DNA of 14,028 nucleotides from Acidobacteriota bacterium (GTDB taxonomy: Bacteria; Acidobacteriota; Terriglobia; Acidiferrales; UBA7541), in the NCBI GenBank assembly GCA_003131705.1, contig PKUY01000325.1:22430-36457 (forward strand), in the 5' to 3' direction. The position numbers were made by a program, and so were the translations under genes. The notes beneath the pieces are model-generated. The model made no database searches and was not told where the DNA came from. It saw nothing but the letters and a program-made list of their open reading frames with translations. This document shows, in pieces, positions 4,172 to 14,028 of the stretch. The number at the start of each line of letters is the position of its first letter. The stretch's first letter is position 1.

Positions 4172-4242
4172 TCGGCCTCGCGACGGTCCGAGTAGACTGT
4201 TTCGGTGTTCACCCTAACAGTGCTCGGACCGAAGGAGGCCGA
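4172..4242 (+). promoter_or_regulatory. Long stem-loop over the IS110 transposase ribosome binding site
   Basis: Seventy-one bases fold into one nearly continuous hairpin. Outer stem TCGGCCTC (4172-4179) pairs with GAGGCCGA (4235-4242). The next stem, CGGTCCGAG (4184-4192), pairs with CTCGGACCG (4223-4231). Then ACTGTT (4196-4201) pairs with AACAGT (4216-4221), and GGTG (4204-4207) with CACC (4210-4213) at the tip. In total 26-27 base pairs form, with small internal loops. The ribosome binding site AAGGAGG (4232-4238) lies inside the right-hand arm and the ATG at 4244 is just outside. The fold could block translation of read-through transcripts, as known for other insertion sequences. It could also be part of the non-coding RNA (bridge RNA) that IS110-group elements encode upstream of the transposase. 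The pairing is directly visible; the role is inferred. Confidence 0.7.
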
Positions 4243-4740
4243 GATGAGAATTATAGGATGTGACTTGCACGCTCGCCAGCAAACGTTGGCGATGCTGGAC
4301 ACCACAACGGGAGAGGTGGTGGAGAAGACCCTGACGCACGAAGGCAACAACGTGCGGGAGTTTTATTCCACGCTTCCGGGGCCCGTGCGCGTGGGGATCG
4401 AAGCGACCGGATCGATGCAGTGGTTTGTGAACCTGATGGAAGAGCTAGGGATCGAATGCCAGGTCGGTCACCCGGCGACGATTCGTGCGGCCGAGCCACG
4501 GAAGCAGAAACATGATCGGCGAGATGCGGACTTGATTCTGAAGCTGCTGGTAGAAAACCGCTTTCCGTCGATCTGGCTGCCTCCGAAGGAACTGCGAGAT
4601 CTGCGGGCCTTGCTACTGCACCGTCATCAGTGGGTACGGATGCGGACGCGAGTACAGAATGCCCTGCAGGCCATCGCCTTGGCGAACGGTTTACGACGGG
4701 GCCCCTCTCTGTGGAGCCAAGACGGGCAACGCACCATAGC
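4172..4740 (+). mobile_element. IS110-family insertion sequence fragment
   Basis: This is the left part of an IS110-family element: the upstream hairpin plus the N-terminal domain of the transposase. The right boundary is set where the protein stops resembling the family (about 4735-4740); the true left end may lie further upstream. IS110 elements lack clear terminal inverted repeats and usually make no target duplication, so exact ends cannot be read from the window. The fragment lies next to the structured block and between two unrelated operons, which suggests repeated insertion and deletion at this spot. Confidence 0.6.
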
Positions 4741-4783
4741 GTACTGTGTCTACATCTCGCTTACTGAGATTAACCGTTATTAA
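4244..4783 (+). pseudogene. IS110-family transposase, N-terminal DEDD domain only (truncated)
   Basis: The reading frame gives 179 residues; full IS110 transposases are usually about 300-400. The RuvC-like DEDD domain is present: Asp in IIGCDLHA (near residue 6), Glu in GIEATGS (about residue 50), and the paired acids in KHDRRDADLILKLL (about 88-101). The similarity runs through a NGLRRGPSLWSQDGQ segment, after which the last 15 or so residues no longer look like the family and end at a stop. The C-terminal domain with the catalytic serine is missing, so the protein cannot catalyse transposition alone. The start at 4244 is chosen for its strong ribosome binding site (AAGGAGG, 5 nt away); a start at 4205 would fall inside the hairpin. 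A frame interrupted by deletion is more likely than a short functional protein. Confidence 0.85.
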
Positions 4784-8100: not shown

Positions 8101-8822
8101 ATCCAGGGACGTATGGGATTCGTCCAGGTGAACGGCTAAGTTCCGTTCTTGAGCGCGCTGGCGGGTTTCAGCCAGATGCGTATCCCTACGGGGCCGTCCT
8201 GGAAAGAGTGCAGGTACGCGAACTGGAGGGCAAGCAACAGGATGACTTAATCCTCCGTGTAAAGGACGCTGAAAGCAGCCTGCAACTTCTGCCGGATACG
8301 ACCCCGCAACAGAAGCAAGCGAAAGAAGCAGCGCTAGCTCAATATCAAACAACACTTCTTCACCTGGACGCTAATCCCCCGCTCGGCCGCGTGTCCATTC
8401 GGATTTCTTCGGAGATGAAACACTGGAAGAATGCGGCCGCTGATGTCGAAGTACGAGCGGGAGACACTCTCATCATTCCGAAGAGGCCGAGCTACGTGAT
8501 GATTACCGGCCAGGTTTTCAACCCCACTGCGGTTTCGTATCGGCCAGGGAGAAGCGCGAAATGGTATCTCAGCCAGTCCGGAGGGCCCACGACAACTGCC
8601 AATAAGAAAGGCATTTTTGTCATTCGGGCCGATGGTTCGGTAGTGGGCGAGAAGGAGGGTTTATGGAGCGGAAGTGCCCTGGGAACAGTTCTTCAACCAG
8701 GGGACACCATCGTGGTGCCGGAGAAGGTAATTGGTGGTGGTATTCAATGGGCGAACCTCTTCCAGGCAGCGTCGATAGCGTCCTCTATCGCCAGTACCGT
8801 ATTCATTGCAGTGCGCTACTAG
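5169..8822 (+). CDS. Large Wza-like polysaccharide export protein with about seven SLBB-type repeats
   Basis: This 1217-residue protein should carry capsule or EPS across the periplasm and outer membrane. The N-terminus has a long basic leader then a hydrophobic stretch (about 20-37) ending AAANGQ, a likely signal peptidase I site; there is no lipobox, unlike classical Wza. Residues about 150-180 are Glu/Gln-rich, likely coiled coil, and about 190-390 are a low-complexity Gly/Met/Ser/Gln/Asn region. The polysaccharide export domain begins near 427 (DYVVGPGDSLTIDLWGG). SLBB-type repeats with the G-x-V-x-x-PG-x-Y pattern or close variants follow from about 505, 592, 684, 776, 867, 967 and 1108. 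The last segment (about 1190-1217) is hydrophobic with Trp and a terminal Tyr and could be the outer-membrane helix. ATG 5169 has a ribosome binding site (GGAGAGGA, 5155-5163); GTG 5127 and ATG 5226 are alternatives. Wza is usually under 400 residues with two or three such domains. Confidence 0.88.
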   Translation: MNVHRLGARTIGVPESRKTMPFVVCILLSFLSFAAAANGQNQRSIPIQNSDLARQNMNQVAASAGQIKEVLLKDAGLMVELKQWVAKDATDHGQIISESDLTNDSLFDRLENDVQLRSVATRMLQRYGYLVPKVNPDSELGKQQELLVQERVKWITQEEEEARQQQHAQAQQKIEQARLCAQGQQSSCVGQQRRSQPTSAPEDESSPNAPPLRSNPSGPNPPALPQGQNDLVQRAQLMQTGEESGGDVSGYPFDEGSFGDSYGAAQSMGMSSGLGGQLTPSLLQQLQNGENGDTGSGEGGAGLGLQRSLLNSSMGGMGMGAMDLGGSLDQNDLSSLDMGQANATGMNSSATRGNSSQAFTQPFSGQRRNRELLEPVEMVRAANPYKDIPSLYDMYMQAVPRPAVPRRFGIDVFQNQTQGSRYLPMDLPAGPDYVVGPGDSLTIDLWGGISRRFVRTVDREGRLSLPEVGPVLVSGKSLTEVQENVQQVLRSQYKDVSADISLSRLRTIRVYEVGDIENPGAYDISSLSTPLNALFSAGGPTSRGSLPIVKHYRGNQLVEDVDLYDLLLHGVKGDMQRLENGDTILVPPIGPQVTVDGMVRRPAIYELKDEKDLARVLELAGGLLPTAALRHIEVQRLVAHEKQTMLSLDIPNTDDDAQVTQELKAFEIHDGDQVRVFPIAQGNEDAVYLEGHVIRPGRYSYRADMRVTDMISSFKELLPEPATEYAEIIRLNAPDFHPTVESFNLSEALENPSQAPTLHPMDTVRIFSRFDFENPPTVSVLGDVRRPGTYQTSGQIHLADAIHLAGGLAPDAQTSDAQVFRHLPDGTSKILSVSLSQALEGNTTENIVLEPRDRLLIHGNSEAVEPPTVYIHGEVEKPGRYPLTTNMTVADLIRVGGGMKLSADTQAGDLTRYEYTKESNSDQTKLTGQHESVAISAVLSGDSHSNVPVHNGDVLTIRQLPGWNDLGASISLRGEVKHPGTYGIRPGERLSSVLERAGGFQPDAYPYGAVLERVQVRELEGKQQDDLILRVKDAESSLQLLPDTTPQQKQAKEAALAQYQTTLLHLDANPPLGRVSIRISSEMKHWKNAAADVEVRAGDTLIIPKRPSYVMITGQVFNPTAVSYRPGRSAKWYLSQSGGPTTTANKKGIFVIRADGSVVGEKEGLWSGSALGTVLQPGDTIVVPEKVIGGGIQWANLFQAASIASSIASTVFIAVRY

Positions 8823-8834
8823 GGGGCGAATAGG

Positions 8835-11342
8835 ATGCTGAAATGGGCTCGACTCACGGTCGGTATTTGCTTGCTAGCGATATCTATCGCCGTAAGCACG
8901 AGTTGTTACGCCCAGTCTCAGCAACAGCCCGTATCGGAAGCCGAATCTTCCAGCGGGGCGAAGGCGGCGGTGGCAGACTCTCCAGATTACGAGAATTCGT
9001 TGGGGCCGCACTTGCTAAAGAGCATTGGCGAAGATCAAAAAGCCATCTGGACGAGCCCGGCGCGAATTCGCCTCGACGACATGATCTGGCTTGTGCCGCT
9101 CGGCGGTCTGACTGCCGGCTTTCTTGTGACAGATAGGGACACGAGCAAACATCTTTCGAACTCGGCCAGTCAGATTAAGTACAGCACAGACCTCTCGAAT
9201 TACGGTATTGGTTCGCTCGTCGCCGTCGGAGGCGGCCTGTACCTTTGGGGCCGCATTACGCGCGACGACCACAAACGCGAGGCGGGATTTCTGGCGGGTG
9301 AGGCGGCGCTCAACAGTCTTGCCGTGACCTACGCGGCAAAGTATGCATTCGGCCGCGAACGACCGTTGCAAGATGATTTCCGGGGGAACTTTTGGCAGAG
9401 CGGAGTTTCATTTCCTTCTGAACATGCGGCGGCCGCTTGGTCGATTGCGAGTGTGATCGCGCATGAGTACCCGGGTCCCTTAACCACATTTCTTGCCTAT
9501 GGTGCCGCTACGGCGATTACAGCATCGCGAGTAACCGCGAAGCAGCATTTTCAATCGGATGTACTGATCGGAAGCGCTATTGGTTGGTTTGTGGGCGAGG
9601 AAGTTTACCGCCGTCACCACGACCCAGAACTCGGTGGTGGCGAATGGAAGAGCCCGGCCGAGGCTCTCCTAAGCGATCATCCTTATCAACCGAAGAATAT
9701 GGGCTCGCCCTATGTGCCCATGGACAGTTGGGTTTACCCATCCCTCGACCGCCTGGAGGCTTTAGGCGACATCCCGGAAGGTTTCCTGGGACAGCGGCCG
9801 TGGACTCGCATGGAATGCGCCCGTCTGATCAGTGATGCAAGAGACAGAATTACCGAGAATTCTTCGAGCCCCGAGGCCGCCAGTCGTATCCTGCAAACGC
9901 TCGAAGATGAATTCGCCCCTGAGCTCAATTCGCTTGGGGGGGGCACTAACCGGAATGTCCGCCTGGAGTCGGCTTATGCACGCGTGACGGAGATAAGCGG
10001 GAAGCCGCTGAGCGATGGCTCTAAGTATGACTTTGGTCAAACGATTGTGAATGACGATGGCCGTCCCTACGAGCAAGGAACCAACATGATTGTTGGTGGT
10101 TCGGGATGGGCGACCGCAGGGCCGCTGGTCGGTTACGCTCGCGCTGAATATCAGTACGCACCTTCCGCTCCGGCTTTGCCGTTTCAGGAACGCCAAGTGA
10201 TACAGCAGGTGCAGCTCCTTCCCACGGTTCCCCCTGGCAATCCTATTCCGGCGATAGGACAAGCCGACCTGCTCGAAGGCTATGTGGGCATGCAATTCGA
10301 TAATTGGCAATTTACTTTCGGCAAGCAAGAGCAGTGGTGGGGACCAGATCAAAGTGGGGCAATGCTTTTGAGCACCAACGCTGAACCCATAGAGATGTTT
10401 CAAATCAATCGAGTGACACCGTTCATACTGCCTGGCGTTTTCAGATTATTAGGAGGCATTCGAGTGCAGATCTTTCTCGGACGAGTGTCCGGCCAGCATT
10501 TCGTGTACGGGGTCCCCACCGGAATTATTGGCACATGGGAGCAGCCACTGAGCGATCAGCCATTTATCGAAGGCGAAAAGATTAGTCTCAAGCCTTCCCC
10601 GAACTTGGAGTTCGGTATGGGCGTCACCACTCTTTTTGCCGGAGCAGGAGTTCCGTTCACGCTCCATAAGTTCGGGCAAGTTTTGCTTCCGACAGGTAGC
10701 GGTCTCCCAGGAACTCCCGGAGACCCGGGAGACCGGCGAGGCGGGTTCGACTTTACATATCGGATTCCGAAGTTGCGCGATTGGCTCACGTTTTATGGTG
10801 ATGCTTTCACCGATGATGAGATCAGTCCTTGGCGCCGCTGGGATAAAGCCGCAGTGACGAGTGGAATCTATTTGCCTCGAATTCCCAAGGTTCCCAAATT
10901 GGATTTTCGCGCGGAAGGAATATACACGGACCCTCCAACAATGCAACCAGCGTTACAGCACGGCTTCTTTTACTTCAACGCTCGCTATCGGAGCGGATAT
11001 ACGAACGGCGGAAACTTGATTGGAAGCTGGGTTGGACGGCAAGGGCAGGGGGCCGAAGCATGGACAACTTATTGGTTTACGCCCAAGGACAGTTTGCAAT
11101 TTAGCTTTCGTCATCAAAAGGTCAGCAAAGGTTTCATCCCCGAGGGTGGTACGTTAACGGACGCAGGAGTCCACGCGACAGCTTGGGTCGGTTCCACGCT
11201 CAGCGTTTCCGCTTCCGTGCAGTATGAAACTTGGAATTTTCCGGTTATATCACCGGCAAGGCAAACCAACGTTACGAGCTCGATCGGGTTGACATTTTGG
11301 CCATGGTCTCGGCATACCGTGGCTGCTAACGAGACCAATTAG
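8835..11342 (+). CDS. PAP2 phosphatase domain fused to a Wzi-type capsule assembly outer-membrane protein
   Basis: An 835-residue two-part protein. A signal peptide covers about residues 1-27 (cleavage after CYA). Residues about 80-265 are a PAP2 phosphatase with all three motifs: K169-x6-R176-P177, P194-S-E-H197 (usual form PSGH), and S231-R232-x5-H238-x3-D242. Several moderately hydrophobic helices surround them. Residues about 295-835 resemble the Wzi capsule assembly family: a helical start (YPSLDRLEALGDIP then RPWTRMECARLI) followed by alternating strands typical of an outer-membrane barrel, with a WQFTFGKQEQWWGP segment. Wzi binds capsule at the cell surface; PAP2 enzymes remove phosphate from lipid pyrophosphates such as undecaprenyl pyrophosphate. 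The gene starts 12 nt after the export gene with a G-rich ribosome binding site (8821-8828), so the two are co-transcribed. The substrate and the final membrane of the PAP2 part are unknown. Confidence 0.85.
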   Translation: MLKWARLTVGICLLAISIAVSTSCYAQSQQQPVSEAESSSGAKAAVADSPDYENSLGPHLLKSIGEDQKAIWTSPARIRLDDMIWLVPLGGLTAGFLVTDRDTSKHLSNSASQIKYSTDLSNYGIGSLVAVGGGLYLWGRITRDDHKREAGFLAGEAALNSLAVTYAAKYAFGRERPLQDDFRGNFWQSGVSFPSEHAAAAWSIASVIAHEYPGPLTTFLAYGAATAITASRVTAKQHFQSDVLIGSAIGWFVGEEVYRRHHDPELGGGEWKSPAEALLSDHPYQPKNMGSPYVPMDSWVYPSLDRLEALGDIPEGFLGQRPWTRMECARLISDARDRITENSSSPEAASRILQTLEDEFAPELNSLGGGTNRNVRLESAYARVTEISGKPLSDGSKYDFGQTIVNDDGRPYEQGTNMIVGGSGWATAGPLVGYARAEYQYAPSAPALPFQERQVIQQVQLLPTVPPGNPIPAIGQADLLEGYVGMQFDNWQFTFGKQEQWWGPDQSGAMLLSTNAEPIEMFQINRVTPFILPGVFRLLGGIRVQIFLGRVSGQHFVYGVPTGIIGTWEQPLSDQPFIEGEKISLKPSPNLEFGMGVTTLFAGAGVPFTLHKFGQVLLPTGSGLPGTPGDPGDRRGGFDFTYRIPKLRDWLTFYGDAFTDDEISPWRRWDKAAVTSGIYLPRIPKVPKLDFRAEGIYTDPPTMQPALQHGFFYFNARYRSGYTNGGNLIGSWVGRQGQGAEAWTTYWFTPKDSLQFSFRHQKVSKGFIPEGGTLTDAGVHATAWVGSTLSVSASVQYETWNFPVISPARQTNVTSSIGLTFWPWSRHTVAANETN

Positions 11343-11504: not shown

Positions 11505-12944
11505 ATGAGCAGAGACCCTCATCAGGTGATTCCGGACCTACCGAGCCAGGAAACTGTTTCAGGACTCGGGTATGAAGAAATCATGATACGTGAAGAGCTT
11601 AGTGATCCCAAAAGTCGTGAACGAACGATCGCCAATCTAAGGCTGCTTTGGACGCGCCGCAAGATGGTATGTAAAGTGTTGATATTTGGCCTCGTGGCGT
11701 CCTTCCTTATCGCTTTTCTGATTCCCTCGCGTTATGAATCGACAACCGAGCTGATGCCACCCGATCAACAATCCGGCAACCTTGGCATGTTAACCGCCAT
11801 TATGGGAAAGGAAGTCAGAGGGATAGACGGGCTCTCGAGCCTTGCAGGGAATGTGTTGGGCGCGAAGACCTCAGGGGATCTCTTCGTCGGGGTCCTTGAG
11901 AGCCGAACAATTCAAGATGACGTCATCAGTAAGTTCAATCTTCGAAAGGTTTATGGTGTTCGTTCTTGGGAAGATGCGCGCAAGAAGCTGACGTCCCACA
12001 CGGATATTGCGAGTGACCGAAAAAGCGGAATCATCTCCATCAAGGTGACAGACCATAGTCCGCAGCGAGCTGCGGCAATGGCCCAAGAATTTGTTGAGGA
12101 ACTAAATCATGTGGTTACAGATTTAAACACCTCTTCGGCTCACAGGGAGCGCGTATTCTTGGAAGGCCGGTTGACCGAGGTCAAGCAGGATCTCGAGTCG
12201 GCCGAGAAGGATTTTAGCGAATTCGCCAGCAAAAACACCGCTATCAATATACCGGAACAAGGTAAGGCAATGATTGCGGCGGCCGCGGAGCTGGAAGGGC
12301 AGCTGATCGCCGCGGAGACCCAACTCCAATCCTTGAGGCAGGTCTACACGGACAATAACGTTCGCGTGAGAGAAACGCAAGCGCGTGCAGATGAACTTCG
12401 ACGGCAGCTCGGGAAGATGGGGGGAGCCGCTGACGGTACCGCATCAACGAATAGTGGAGATGCGCAATCAATGTATCCGTCCATTCGTCAGCTTCCCGTT
12501 CTCGGAGTGAATTATGCGGATTTATATCGACGTACAAAAATTGAAGAAGCGGTATTTGAAAACTTAACGCAAGAATATGAGCTTGCAAGGGTGCAGGAGG
12601 TGAAGGAAACGCCAAGCGTTAAGATATTAGACCCTGCCAATATACCCGGAGAAAGATCCTTTCCCCCGCGGATGCTGATCGGTCTAGGAGGCATGCTGCT
12701 GGCTGGCGCCTTGGGCATGATGTGGGTGCTCGGGAATGAAAAGTGGCGACAAATCGATTCACAAGACTCGGGCAAGATTTTCGCGCTTGAGGTTGCCGAA
12801 ACCGTCCGAACGCGTGTGCCTTGGCGCTTTTGGAACGGATCCTCGGGAACTGTGCCCGGTATTGGAGTTTCGGATCAGCTGACTATAGGACAAGCTCGAG
12901 ACGGTGGAGTGGTCAAGAGACAAGTCGAAGACAAAGAGAAATGA
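11505..12944 (+). CDS. Wzz-type polysaccharide chain-length / co-polymerase protein
   Basis: This 479-residue inner-membrane protein of the polysaccharide co-polymerase family sets chain length in Wzy-dependent synthesis and couples polymerisation to the Wza-like exporter. It has a cytoplasmic N-tail of about 53 residues, TM1 at 54-73, the Wzz fold just after it (RYESTTELMPPD), a long periplasmic helical region rich in Glu, Ala, Gln and Arg (about 205-305), a GNVR-like segment (about 324-387, including YRRTKIEEAVFENLTQEYELA), a proline-rich join FPPR and TM2 at 389-410. A cytoplasmic tail of about 65 residues follows. There is no Walker-type tyrosine kinase domain, so any kinase would be a separate protein. 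The ribosome binding site is weak (GGTG at 11492-11495). The gene lies 162 nt after the Wzi fusion, on the same strand. Confidence 0.9.
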   Translation: MSRDPHQVIPDLPSQETVSGLGYEEIMIREELSDPKSRERTIANLRLLWTRRKMVCKVLIFGLVASFLIAFLIPSRYESTTELMPPDQQSGNLGMLTAIMGKEVRGIDGLSSLAGNVLGAKTSGDLFVGVLESRTIQDDVISKFNLRKVYGVRSWEDARKKLTSHTDIASDRKSGIISIKVTDHSPQRAAAMAQEFVEELNHVVTDLNTSSAHRERVFLEGRLTEVKQDLESAEKDFSEFASKNTAINIPEQGKAMIAAAAELEGQLIAAETQLQSLRQVYTDNNVRVRETQARADELRRQLGKMGGAADGTASTNSGDAQSMYPSIRQLPVLGVNYADLYRRTKIEEAVFENLTQEYELARVQEVKETPSVKILDPANIPGERSFPPRMLIGLGGMLLAGALGMMWVLGNEKWRQIDSQDSGKIFALEVAETVRTRVPWRFWNGSSGTVPGIGVSDQLTIGQARDGGVVKRQVEDKEK

Positions 12945-13051: not shown

Positions 13052-14028
13052 ATGGCTTCGAAGGCTCAAACCGCAGGGGGCACGCGCTCCCTCTCCAGGA
13101 CTGCAGTTACCGGTAGCCACGAGTGGGCGCCCGTTACTGGAGTAAGTACCACCAGTGTCGGCGGAGCCTCCGAATGGCTCAATACAGATGGATCAAATCC
13201 GCAGGGCGATAGCGGGAAACTAACGAAACGGCGTATTGGCGGTCTTTGGGTACAGTTAGTTTACGCAGTAATCGATGTAGTTTGCGTTCTGGCGAACGGC
13301 GCAATCGCTTTCTCTCTACGTTTTTTGCCGGCTAATCTGCGACACCTATTCCTATCGGGACACCTTGCGCTTGCAACCGATCAGCCGCTCGATCGTTATT
13401 TGGGGTTTTTGTTGCTGTACGTCGCACTGATCCTGCTCTTTTGCCAGCTACAGGATCTCTATCGAACGCCGCGAGGACGATCGGCCTCGGAGGAGTCCTT
13501 TGCAGTCATCAAGGCAGTCTCTTTTGCCACCCTGCTCCTGACTGCATTCATTTATCTCTCGGGCGTCAAGATCGTTTCGCGTTCCGTGGTGATGATGAGC
13601 TTGCTGCTAAATGCGATATCCCTCGTCGCATGGAGGTATGCGAAGCGGCGGGTTGTGATCCACAGAGTCAAGAGTGGTATTGGAACGCGCAACGCCGTAA
13701 TCATCGGCGCCGGCAAGATCGGCCAAGCACTCGCGCAGCAATTAGAAAAAAACAAGCTTCTGGGCTACACATTTAAAGGATTCTTAGACGAGAATCATTC
13801 TGACGATCCTCGCATCCTTGGGAAAGTCGAAGACCTGCCGCGCATAGCCCGCGCCGAGTTTGTGGACGAAGTGCTCATTACGATCCCCTCGGAACGCGAG
13901 CTGGTGAAGCGCGTTGTGCTCGAAGCTCGTCAACATCATTTGGATGTGAAGGTGGTCCCAGACCTTTATGATGGACTCGGGTGGAATGCCCCACACCATC
14001 AGATCGGTGATTTCCCAGTCATGGAAAT
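13052..14028 (+). CDS. Polyprenyl-phosphate sugar transferase (WbaP/WcaJ type), N-terminal part; 3' end outside window
   Basis: An open frame of 325 codons runs off the right edge. It matches the N-terminal half of the enzymes that load the first sugar phosphate onto undecaprenyl phosphate at the inner membrane. After a Ser/Thr/Gly-rich tail of about 60 residues come four hydrophobic segments (about 66-93, 117-131, 153-172 and 178-196). A Rossmann-like CoA_binding_3 domain then begins at NAVIIGAGKIGQ (214-225), followed by GYTFKGFLDE (238-247), VLITIPS (274-280) and VKVVPDLYDG (299-308). The catalytic bacterial sugar transferase domain should follow beyond the window. The first in-frame ATG after the TGA at 12989 is 13052; the ribosome binding site is poor (AAGGGG at 13031-13036, rather far). 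The first sugar cannot be told from this part. Confidence 0.88.
   Translation, partial: MASKAQTAGGTRSLSRTAVTGSHEWAPVTGVSTTSVGGASEWLNTDGSNPQGDSGKLTKRRIGGLWVQLVYAVIDVVCVLANGAIAFSLRFLPANLRHLFLSGHLALATDQPLDRYLGFLLLYVALILLFCQLQDLYRTPRGRSASEESFAVIKAVSFATLLLTAFIYLSGVKIVSRSVVMMSLLLNAISLVAWRYAKRRVVIHRVKSGIGTRNAVIIGAGKIGQALAQQLEKNKLLGYTFKGFLDENHSDDPRILGKVEDLPRIARAEFVDEVLITIPSERELVKRVVLEARQHHLDVKVVPDLYDGLGWNAPHHQIGDFPVME

Follow-up and report, generated by a model that had tools for sequence, protein, structure and literature searches.

In Porphyromonas gingivalis, LpxE and similar proteins from 21 other species share the order signal peptide, weakly hydrophobic PAP2 domain and C-terminal beta-barrel, and are predicted to lie in the outer membrane (available text of PMC12704123). 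YfiM-type lipocone domains fused to outer-membrane barrels likewise associate a predicted lipid-headgroup enzyme with a barrel, the enzyme being of another family (PMC12419801, in part). LpxE of Aquifex (structure 6ebu) and the phosphatidylglycerophosphate (PGP) phosphatase of Bacillus subtilis (5jki) are inner-membrane proteins, and Wzi of the Escherichia coli group 1 capsule (2ynk) has no PAP2 domain (PMC3791409). Here we analysed a stretch of 14,028 nucleotides from a soil bacterium of the Acidobacteriota (hereafter the window; assembly GCA_003131705.1, contig PKUY01000325.1), in which a single gene encodes a PAP2 domain followed by Wzi. The novelty implied by a first-pass annotation of the window has to be reduced: the fusion is widespread, the association of PAP2 with an outer-membrane barrel was published as a prediction in 2025 (PMC12704123, available text), and JGI gives the same two-domain proteins the name ‘Capsule assembly protein Wzi/PAP2 superfamily’, a name only, found on some of the matches listed (54–68% identical). 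What differs from the P. gingivalis case is Wzi as the barrel. No study of a Wzi–PAP2 fusion was found in the literature searched, which covers few subscription journals, and in a survey of Wzi homologues near exporter genes the main text contains neither the word PAP2 nor Acidobacteri (PMC9603273, in part).

We propose, with a confidence that stops just short of even, that this gene encodes an outer-membrane PAP2 enzyme carried on a complete Wzi barrel, which belongs to a Wzx/Wzy-type polysaccharide operon and performs phosphate chemistry where the polymer leaves the cell. The two domains lie in one stop-free frame, as first annotated, and match PF01569 (residues 156–260, 63 bits, curated cut-off 27.2) and PF14052 (residues 398–811, 334.5 bits, curated cut-off 30.1); the signal peptide proposed earlier agrees with a hydrophobic N-terminus and a plausible cleavage site between YA and QS, read by eye. 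The structure prediction also bears out the C-terminal barrel, with 18 strands of 8 or more residues plus two short ones, and E. coli Wzi (2ynk) aligns with the model over residues 291–824, so that the C-terminal half is modelled as a complete Wzi, barrel and helical bundle, joined to PAP2 by a linker of about 30 residues. An S-layer homology (SLH) domain was considered as a third domain and rejected, as the SLH-like match (8bz2) falls inside the helical bundle of Wzi itself. The P. gingivalis LpxE barrel differs in being about 200 amino acids long with 8 predicted strands (PMC12704123, available text). An assembly or frameshift artefact was rejected because the same fusion recurs in no fewer than 48 of the 112 Wzi matches (two of them fragments) from 200 genomes of the class, and in 40 fetched loci; the join is therefore real, and it is common in related bacteria.

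All three PAP2 motifs (KX6RP, PSGH and SRX5HX3D) are present in the window protein, with Glu replacing the Gly of PSGH, which confirms the initial reading of the sequence. Motif 2 of PAP2 is PSGH, its Gly standing at the position that matches residue 196. Residues were counted on an alignment of 41 fused domains (40 fetched and the window protein) instead of by a motif regular expression, which missed one of the 40 fused and four of the 20 stand-alone domains. H238, the nucleophile of PAP2 enzymes, H197, their acid, and R232, D242 and R174 are invariant (41/41), so the catalytic residues have not been lost in homologues; R176 is retained in 40 domains, K169 in only 33. Because of this conservation catalysis is probably retained in the fused enzymes, and we consider it likely that the PAP2 half is active. 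The tripartite motif has been described for LpxE (PMC6581854, in part). Residue 196 is E in 19 fused domains, N in 7, D in 6 and another residue in 9 (Gly in one), i.e. E, D or N in 32/41, whereas Gly is kept in 14 of the 20 stand-alone relatives; among 76 closer relatives it is E in 34 and D in 32. As aligned, the position beside the motif-2 His is altered in the fused enzymes compared with stand-alone relatives, and the residues mostly found there also set them apart from Aquifex LpxE and B. subtilis PGP phosphatase.

The first-pass annotation had pointed to a topology problem, with a protein that either spans the envelope or brings a lipid phosphatase to the outer membrane. Inner-membrane PAP2 enzymes were represented by YbjG, PgpB and LpxT of E. 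coli, using a 19-residue segment of hydropathy above 1.6 as the criterion. Each of these controls has four such segments, and there is none in any of the 40 fused PAP2 domains, nor in any of the 76 closer relatives, whose median peak is 1.33. L004 of the window's own genome, whose PAP2 frame was not picked out, is outside the proteins measured. By sequence, the fused PAP2 is for this reason not a normal inner-membrane PAP2, and its helices, far less hydrophobic than those of the three E. coli enzymes, call for no inner-membrane anchor. Stand-alone PAP2 relatives are more hydrophobic (median peak 1.65; one segment above 1.6 in 7 of 20 fetched). A first reading from hydropathy alone, as a plain soluble PAP2, was weakened by a test for charge-free cores, defined as alignment columns with at most 5% charged residues in the 76 relatives (mean identity 60% to the window protein). 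Four PAP2 helix cores are nearly charge-free (15, 17, 14 and 13 columns, mean hydropathy 1.0–1.5), and the sole further charge-free run of the whole fusion protein is in the barrel, at −0.45. Class A acid phosphatases (n = 120, 71% alike) show a single run in the mature protein, at the PSGH helix (0.37), and a median peak of 0.69; soluble helical proteins of PcaB-like type, used as a control (30 rows, 32% identity), show two short runs, 11 and 12, in 455 columns, and Wzz from the same loci has its two expected inner-membrane helices at 2.1–2.2 and one more run at 0.68. With four charge-free cores against one, the fused PAP2 does not resemble the soluble class A branch in its hydropathy pattern. 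Two observations weigh against a membrane placement: a charge-free core is missing from two of the six PAP2 helices, and uncharged runs counted per sequence do not set the classes clearly apart, with 2.9 per 200 amino acids compared with values of 1.8 and 2.0 for two soluble controls and 4.2–5.1 for three inner-membrane controls. Our conclusion on location therefore leans on the alignment-based test.

Porphyromonas LpxE has a higher insertion energy, a signal peptide and a barrel, and is predicted to be in the outer membrane (PMC12704123, available text); helices of outer-membrane proteins are less hydrophobic, which avoids their capture in the inner membrane (PMC11845990). The in-between signature of the fused PAP2 matches both patterns, the reduced hydrophobicity being common to P. 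gingivalis LpxE and the window protein although scale and controls differ from those of PMC12704123 (available text). The signal-peptide-like start and the barrel direct the protein outward, and from the matching hydropathy pattern we predict with good confidence that the PAP2 part is located in the outer membrane or on its periplasmic face. Little then remains of the topology problem, outer-membrane placement of the phosphatase being favoured over an envelope-spanning protein.

The predicted fold of the PAP2 part is of the LpxE/PgpB kind. It was compared as a PAP2-only model, the structure matches of the full-length model being all taken up by barrels; Foldseek E-values of this model are weak (best 1.9e-3). 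Its two closest solved folds, Aquifex LpxE and B. subtilis PGP phosphatase, tie in fold score, so that the lipid substrate cannot be read from the fold. The most serious competitor of polymer-linked chemistry, though in our view unlikely, is that an LpxE-like PAP2 trims lipid A phosphate around the polysaccharide port, with Wzi as anchor and address. Besides the fold, this would be in line with Porphyromonas LpxE, a protein of the same order of parts whose lipid A 1-phosphatase activity was established by mutant (PMC12704123, available text) and is no more than a candidate activity for the window protein. However, the barrel is of a polysaccharide-assembly type and the gene lies in a polysaccharide-export operon, unlike that of P. 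gingivalis LpxE, the fold score is shared with the Bacillus enzyme, and lipid A is in the outer leaflet while the PAP2 domain is expected on the periplasmic side. A soluble periplasmic phosphatase of the class A non-specific acid type, tethered by Wzi and acting on small molecules or polymer ends, seems improbable. Low hydropathy in 40/40 fused domains, weak sequence matches to the class A enzymes 9htz, 8yc1 and 1d2t, and per-sequence uncharged runs not clearly apart from soluble controls would suit it, but the fold score is about 9 for class A enzymes versus 13.6 for LpxE, PF22778, which many class A relatives carry, was not found on the window protein in the Pfam scan, and the charge-free cores and the median peak hydropathy set the fused PAP2 apart from class A enzymes. 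Very unlikely is an undecaprenyl-pyrophosphate (C55-PP) phosphatase at the inner membrane, in a protein that spans the envelope: YbjG and PgpB do have the PAP2 fold, and the undecaprenyl-diphosphate phosphatase model NF008813 gives a weak match (24 bits, cut-off 229), but the strongly hydrophobic helices of YbjG/PgpB-type enzymes are found in 0/40 fused domains, the linker is short, and the genome encodes two further PAP2 proteins besides a BacA-type sequence. That PAP2 has become a non-catalytic binding or docking module deserves hardly any credit, since H238, H197, R232, D242 and R174 are invariant in 41/41 domains even though the motif-1 lysine is lost in 8/41 and Gly at position 196 is replaced in 40/41.

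The features of the window are collected in Table 1. Directly upstream, defined as on the same strand and within 600 bases, an exporter is found at 28 of the 40 fetched loci (taken from 47 fusions outside the window's genome), and 23/40 also have Wzz directly downstream by script; at L080, scored without Wzz owing to overlapping frames, Wzz does adjoin. The suggestion that the fusion might always lie between exporter and Wzz therefore does not hold. By family, the upstream exporter is present in 19/21 (f1), 5/5 (f69), 4/12 (f2) and 0/2 (f70, in which it is directly downstream). Twenty neighbour proteins from six loci were scanned and include Wzy_C, flippase-like, glycosyltransferase, sugar transferase, methyltransferase and NusG-like domains, a set in keeping with a Wzx/Wzy-type pathway. 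The NusG-like proteins encoded near the Wzz or Wzi gene (L058, 12815–13429; L098, 8259–8885) are possibly operon-specific antiterminators of the RfaH kind. Among 20 fetched Wzi proteins without PAP2, four are directly behind an exporter (L098, L099, L105, L110), three of these directly before Wzz; the exporter is downstream in three, and neither gene is in the stretch in ten. Because the same operon slot can hold Wzi without PAP2, and in agreement with the trees presented below, PAP2 looks like an optional, accessory module on the Wzi barrel. Stand-alone PAP2 relatives have neither exporter nor Wzz in the fetched stretch (4.5–20 kb) in 19 of 20 cases, the other having an exporter-like frame elsewhere in it. 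In the window, the C-terminus of the exporter (8735–8819) is hydrophobic and helix-like by eye, as expected of a Wza-type outer-membrane helix, and beside the polysaccharide operon a frame of 192 amino acids (4205–4783) of IS110 transposase type, matching only the N-terminal DEDD domain, looks truncated.

Table 1. Features of the window discussed in the text, in window positions
Feature	Position	Strand	Evidence or remark
SLBB/Poly_export exporter (outer-membrane polysaccharide export, OPX, Wza-type), 1231 aa	5127..8822	+	PF02563, PF10531, PF22461; directly upstream of fusion
PAP2-Wzi fusion gene, 835 aa	8835..11342	+	Stop-free open frame; PF01569 and PF14052; 40 fetched relatives fused alike
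Signal-peptide-like N-terminal segment, residues 1–26	8835..8912	+	Hydrophobic stretch, possible cleavage between YA and QS, judged by eye
PAP2 domain, six-helix core, residues 80–261	9072..9617	+	
PAP2 motif 1, K169-x6-R176-P177	9339..9365	+	Sequence
PAP2 motif 2, P194-S-E-H197	9414..9425	+	Sequence
PAP2 motif 3, S231-R232-x5-H238-x3-D242	9525..9560	+	Sequence
Wzi N-terminal helical bundle (SLH-like), residues 291–372	9705..9950	+	SLH-like match 8bz2; within 2ynk structural alignment 291–824
Wzi-type outer-membrane barrel, residues 374–821	9954..11297	+	PF14052, structure model, 2ynk alignment
Wzz/polysaccharide co-polymerase (PCP) chain-length protein	11505..12944	+	PF02706; downstream of fusion
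Sugar-1-phosphate (polyprenyl-phosphate) transferase, N-terminal part	13052..14026	+	Cut by contig end; CoA_binding_3; partial TIGR03025 below cut-off

A search gave 6246 proteins at E 0.001 or better, and both domains are present in every one of the 120 listed, among them the window protein; an exact-pattern scan of genome contigs gave just 2 relatives, a number limited by the exactness of the pattern. PF14052 is found in 71 of the 200 genomes of the class, and the fused matches, counted after two match listings had been paired manually by contig, position and length of the open frame, come from 42 genomes, own genome included, so that the survey proposed earlier does find the same fusion elsewhere. 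In the window's own family it is present in 19 of 20 Wzi-bearing genomes, the exception being G228. In the window's genome, of which the assembly is incomplete (81%, 441 contigs), no second Wzi was found, and two other PAP2 matches lie elsewhere. A BacA-type C55-PP phosphatase (G000 contig C402, 1884–2668; L138, L139) is split over two adjoining frames, by an assembly error or as a broken gene. Outside the class (phylum sample, 30/149 genomes with PF14052), Wzi frames compared by length (387–732 amino acids) stay below the smallest of the fusion frames (810). Stand-alone PAP2 relatives (L113–L132; P0121–P0240) are mostly of 235–380 amino acids, some being named for Edaphobacter or Tunturiibacter.

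On trees of the two halves (61 rows each), the fused label has to change 3 times for PAP2, with 2 of these changes forced by branches of strong support, and 8 times for Wzi, with 5 forced. The halves thus have partly separate histories, and a single fusion event was rejected, gain not being separable from loss. The half trees are in strongly supported conflict, as the window PAP2 pairs with L053 and the window Wzi with L056 and L059, which suggests, as far as these sequences go, an exchange inside the fusion gene. L053 and L075, the two copies of G292, share a Wzi clade with L070.

If the product is a PAP2 enzyme of the outer membrane borne by a Wzi barrel, then at that membrane the barrel and helical bundle would hold or guide the exported polymer, Wzi would bring the PAP2 half along with it, and the phospho-histidine chemistry of this half would remove or transfer phosphate at polymer exit. 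The likeliest substrate would be the phosphate-bearing end of the polymer or its lipid carrier, with an effect on polymer release or on its retention by Wzi. Our first choice of a polymer-linked substrate, a tentative one that we hold with some doubt, comes from the polysaccharide operon; lipid A is the other candidate, suggested by the LpxE-like fold and by the Porphyromonas protein. A role as the main carrier-recycling enzyme of the cell is unlikely, as the genome also carries a BacA-type sequence and other PAP2 proteins. In conclusion, the fusion suggests phosphate chemistry where the sugar coat exits the cell, and a PAP2 domain built into a Wzi barrel beside the exporter makes such chemistry testable. 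If true, it would add another example, on a barrel of a different type, of how a lipid-phosphatase fold with several helices can be adapted to an outer-membrane location.
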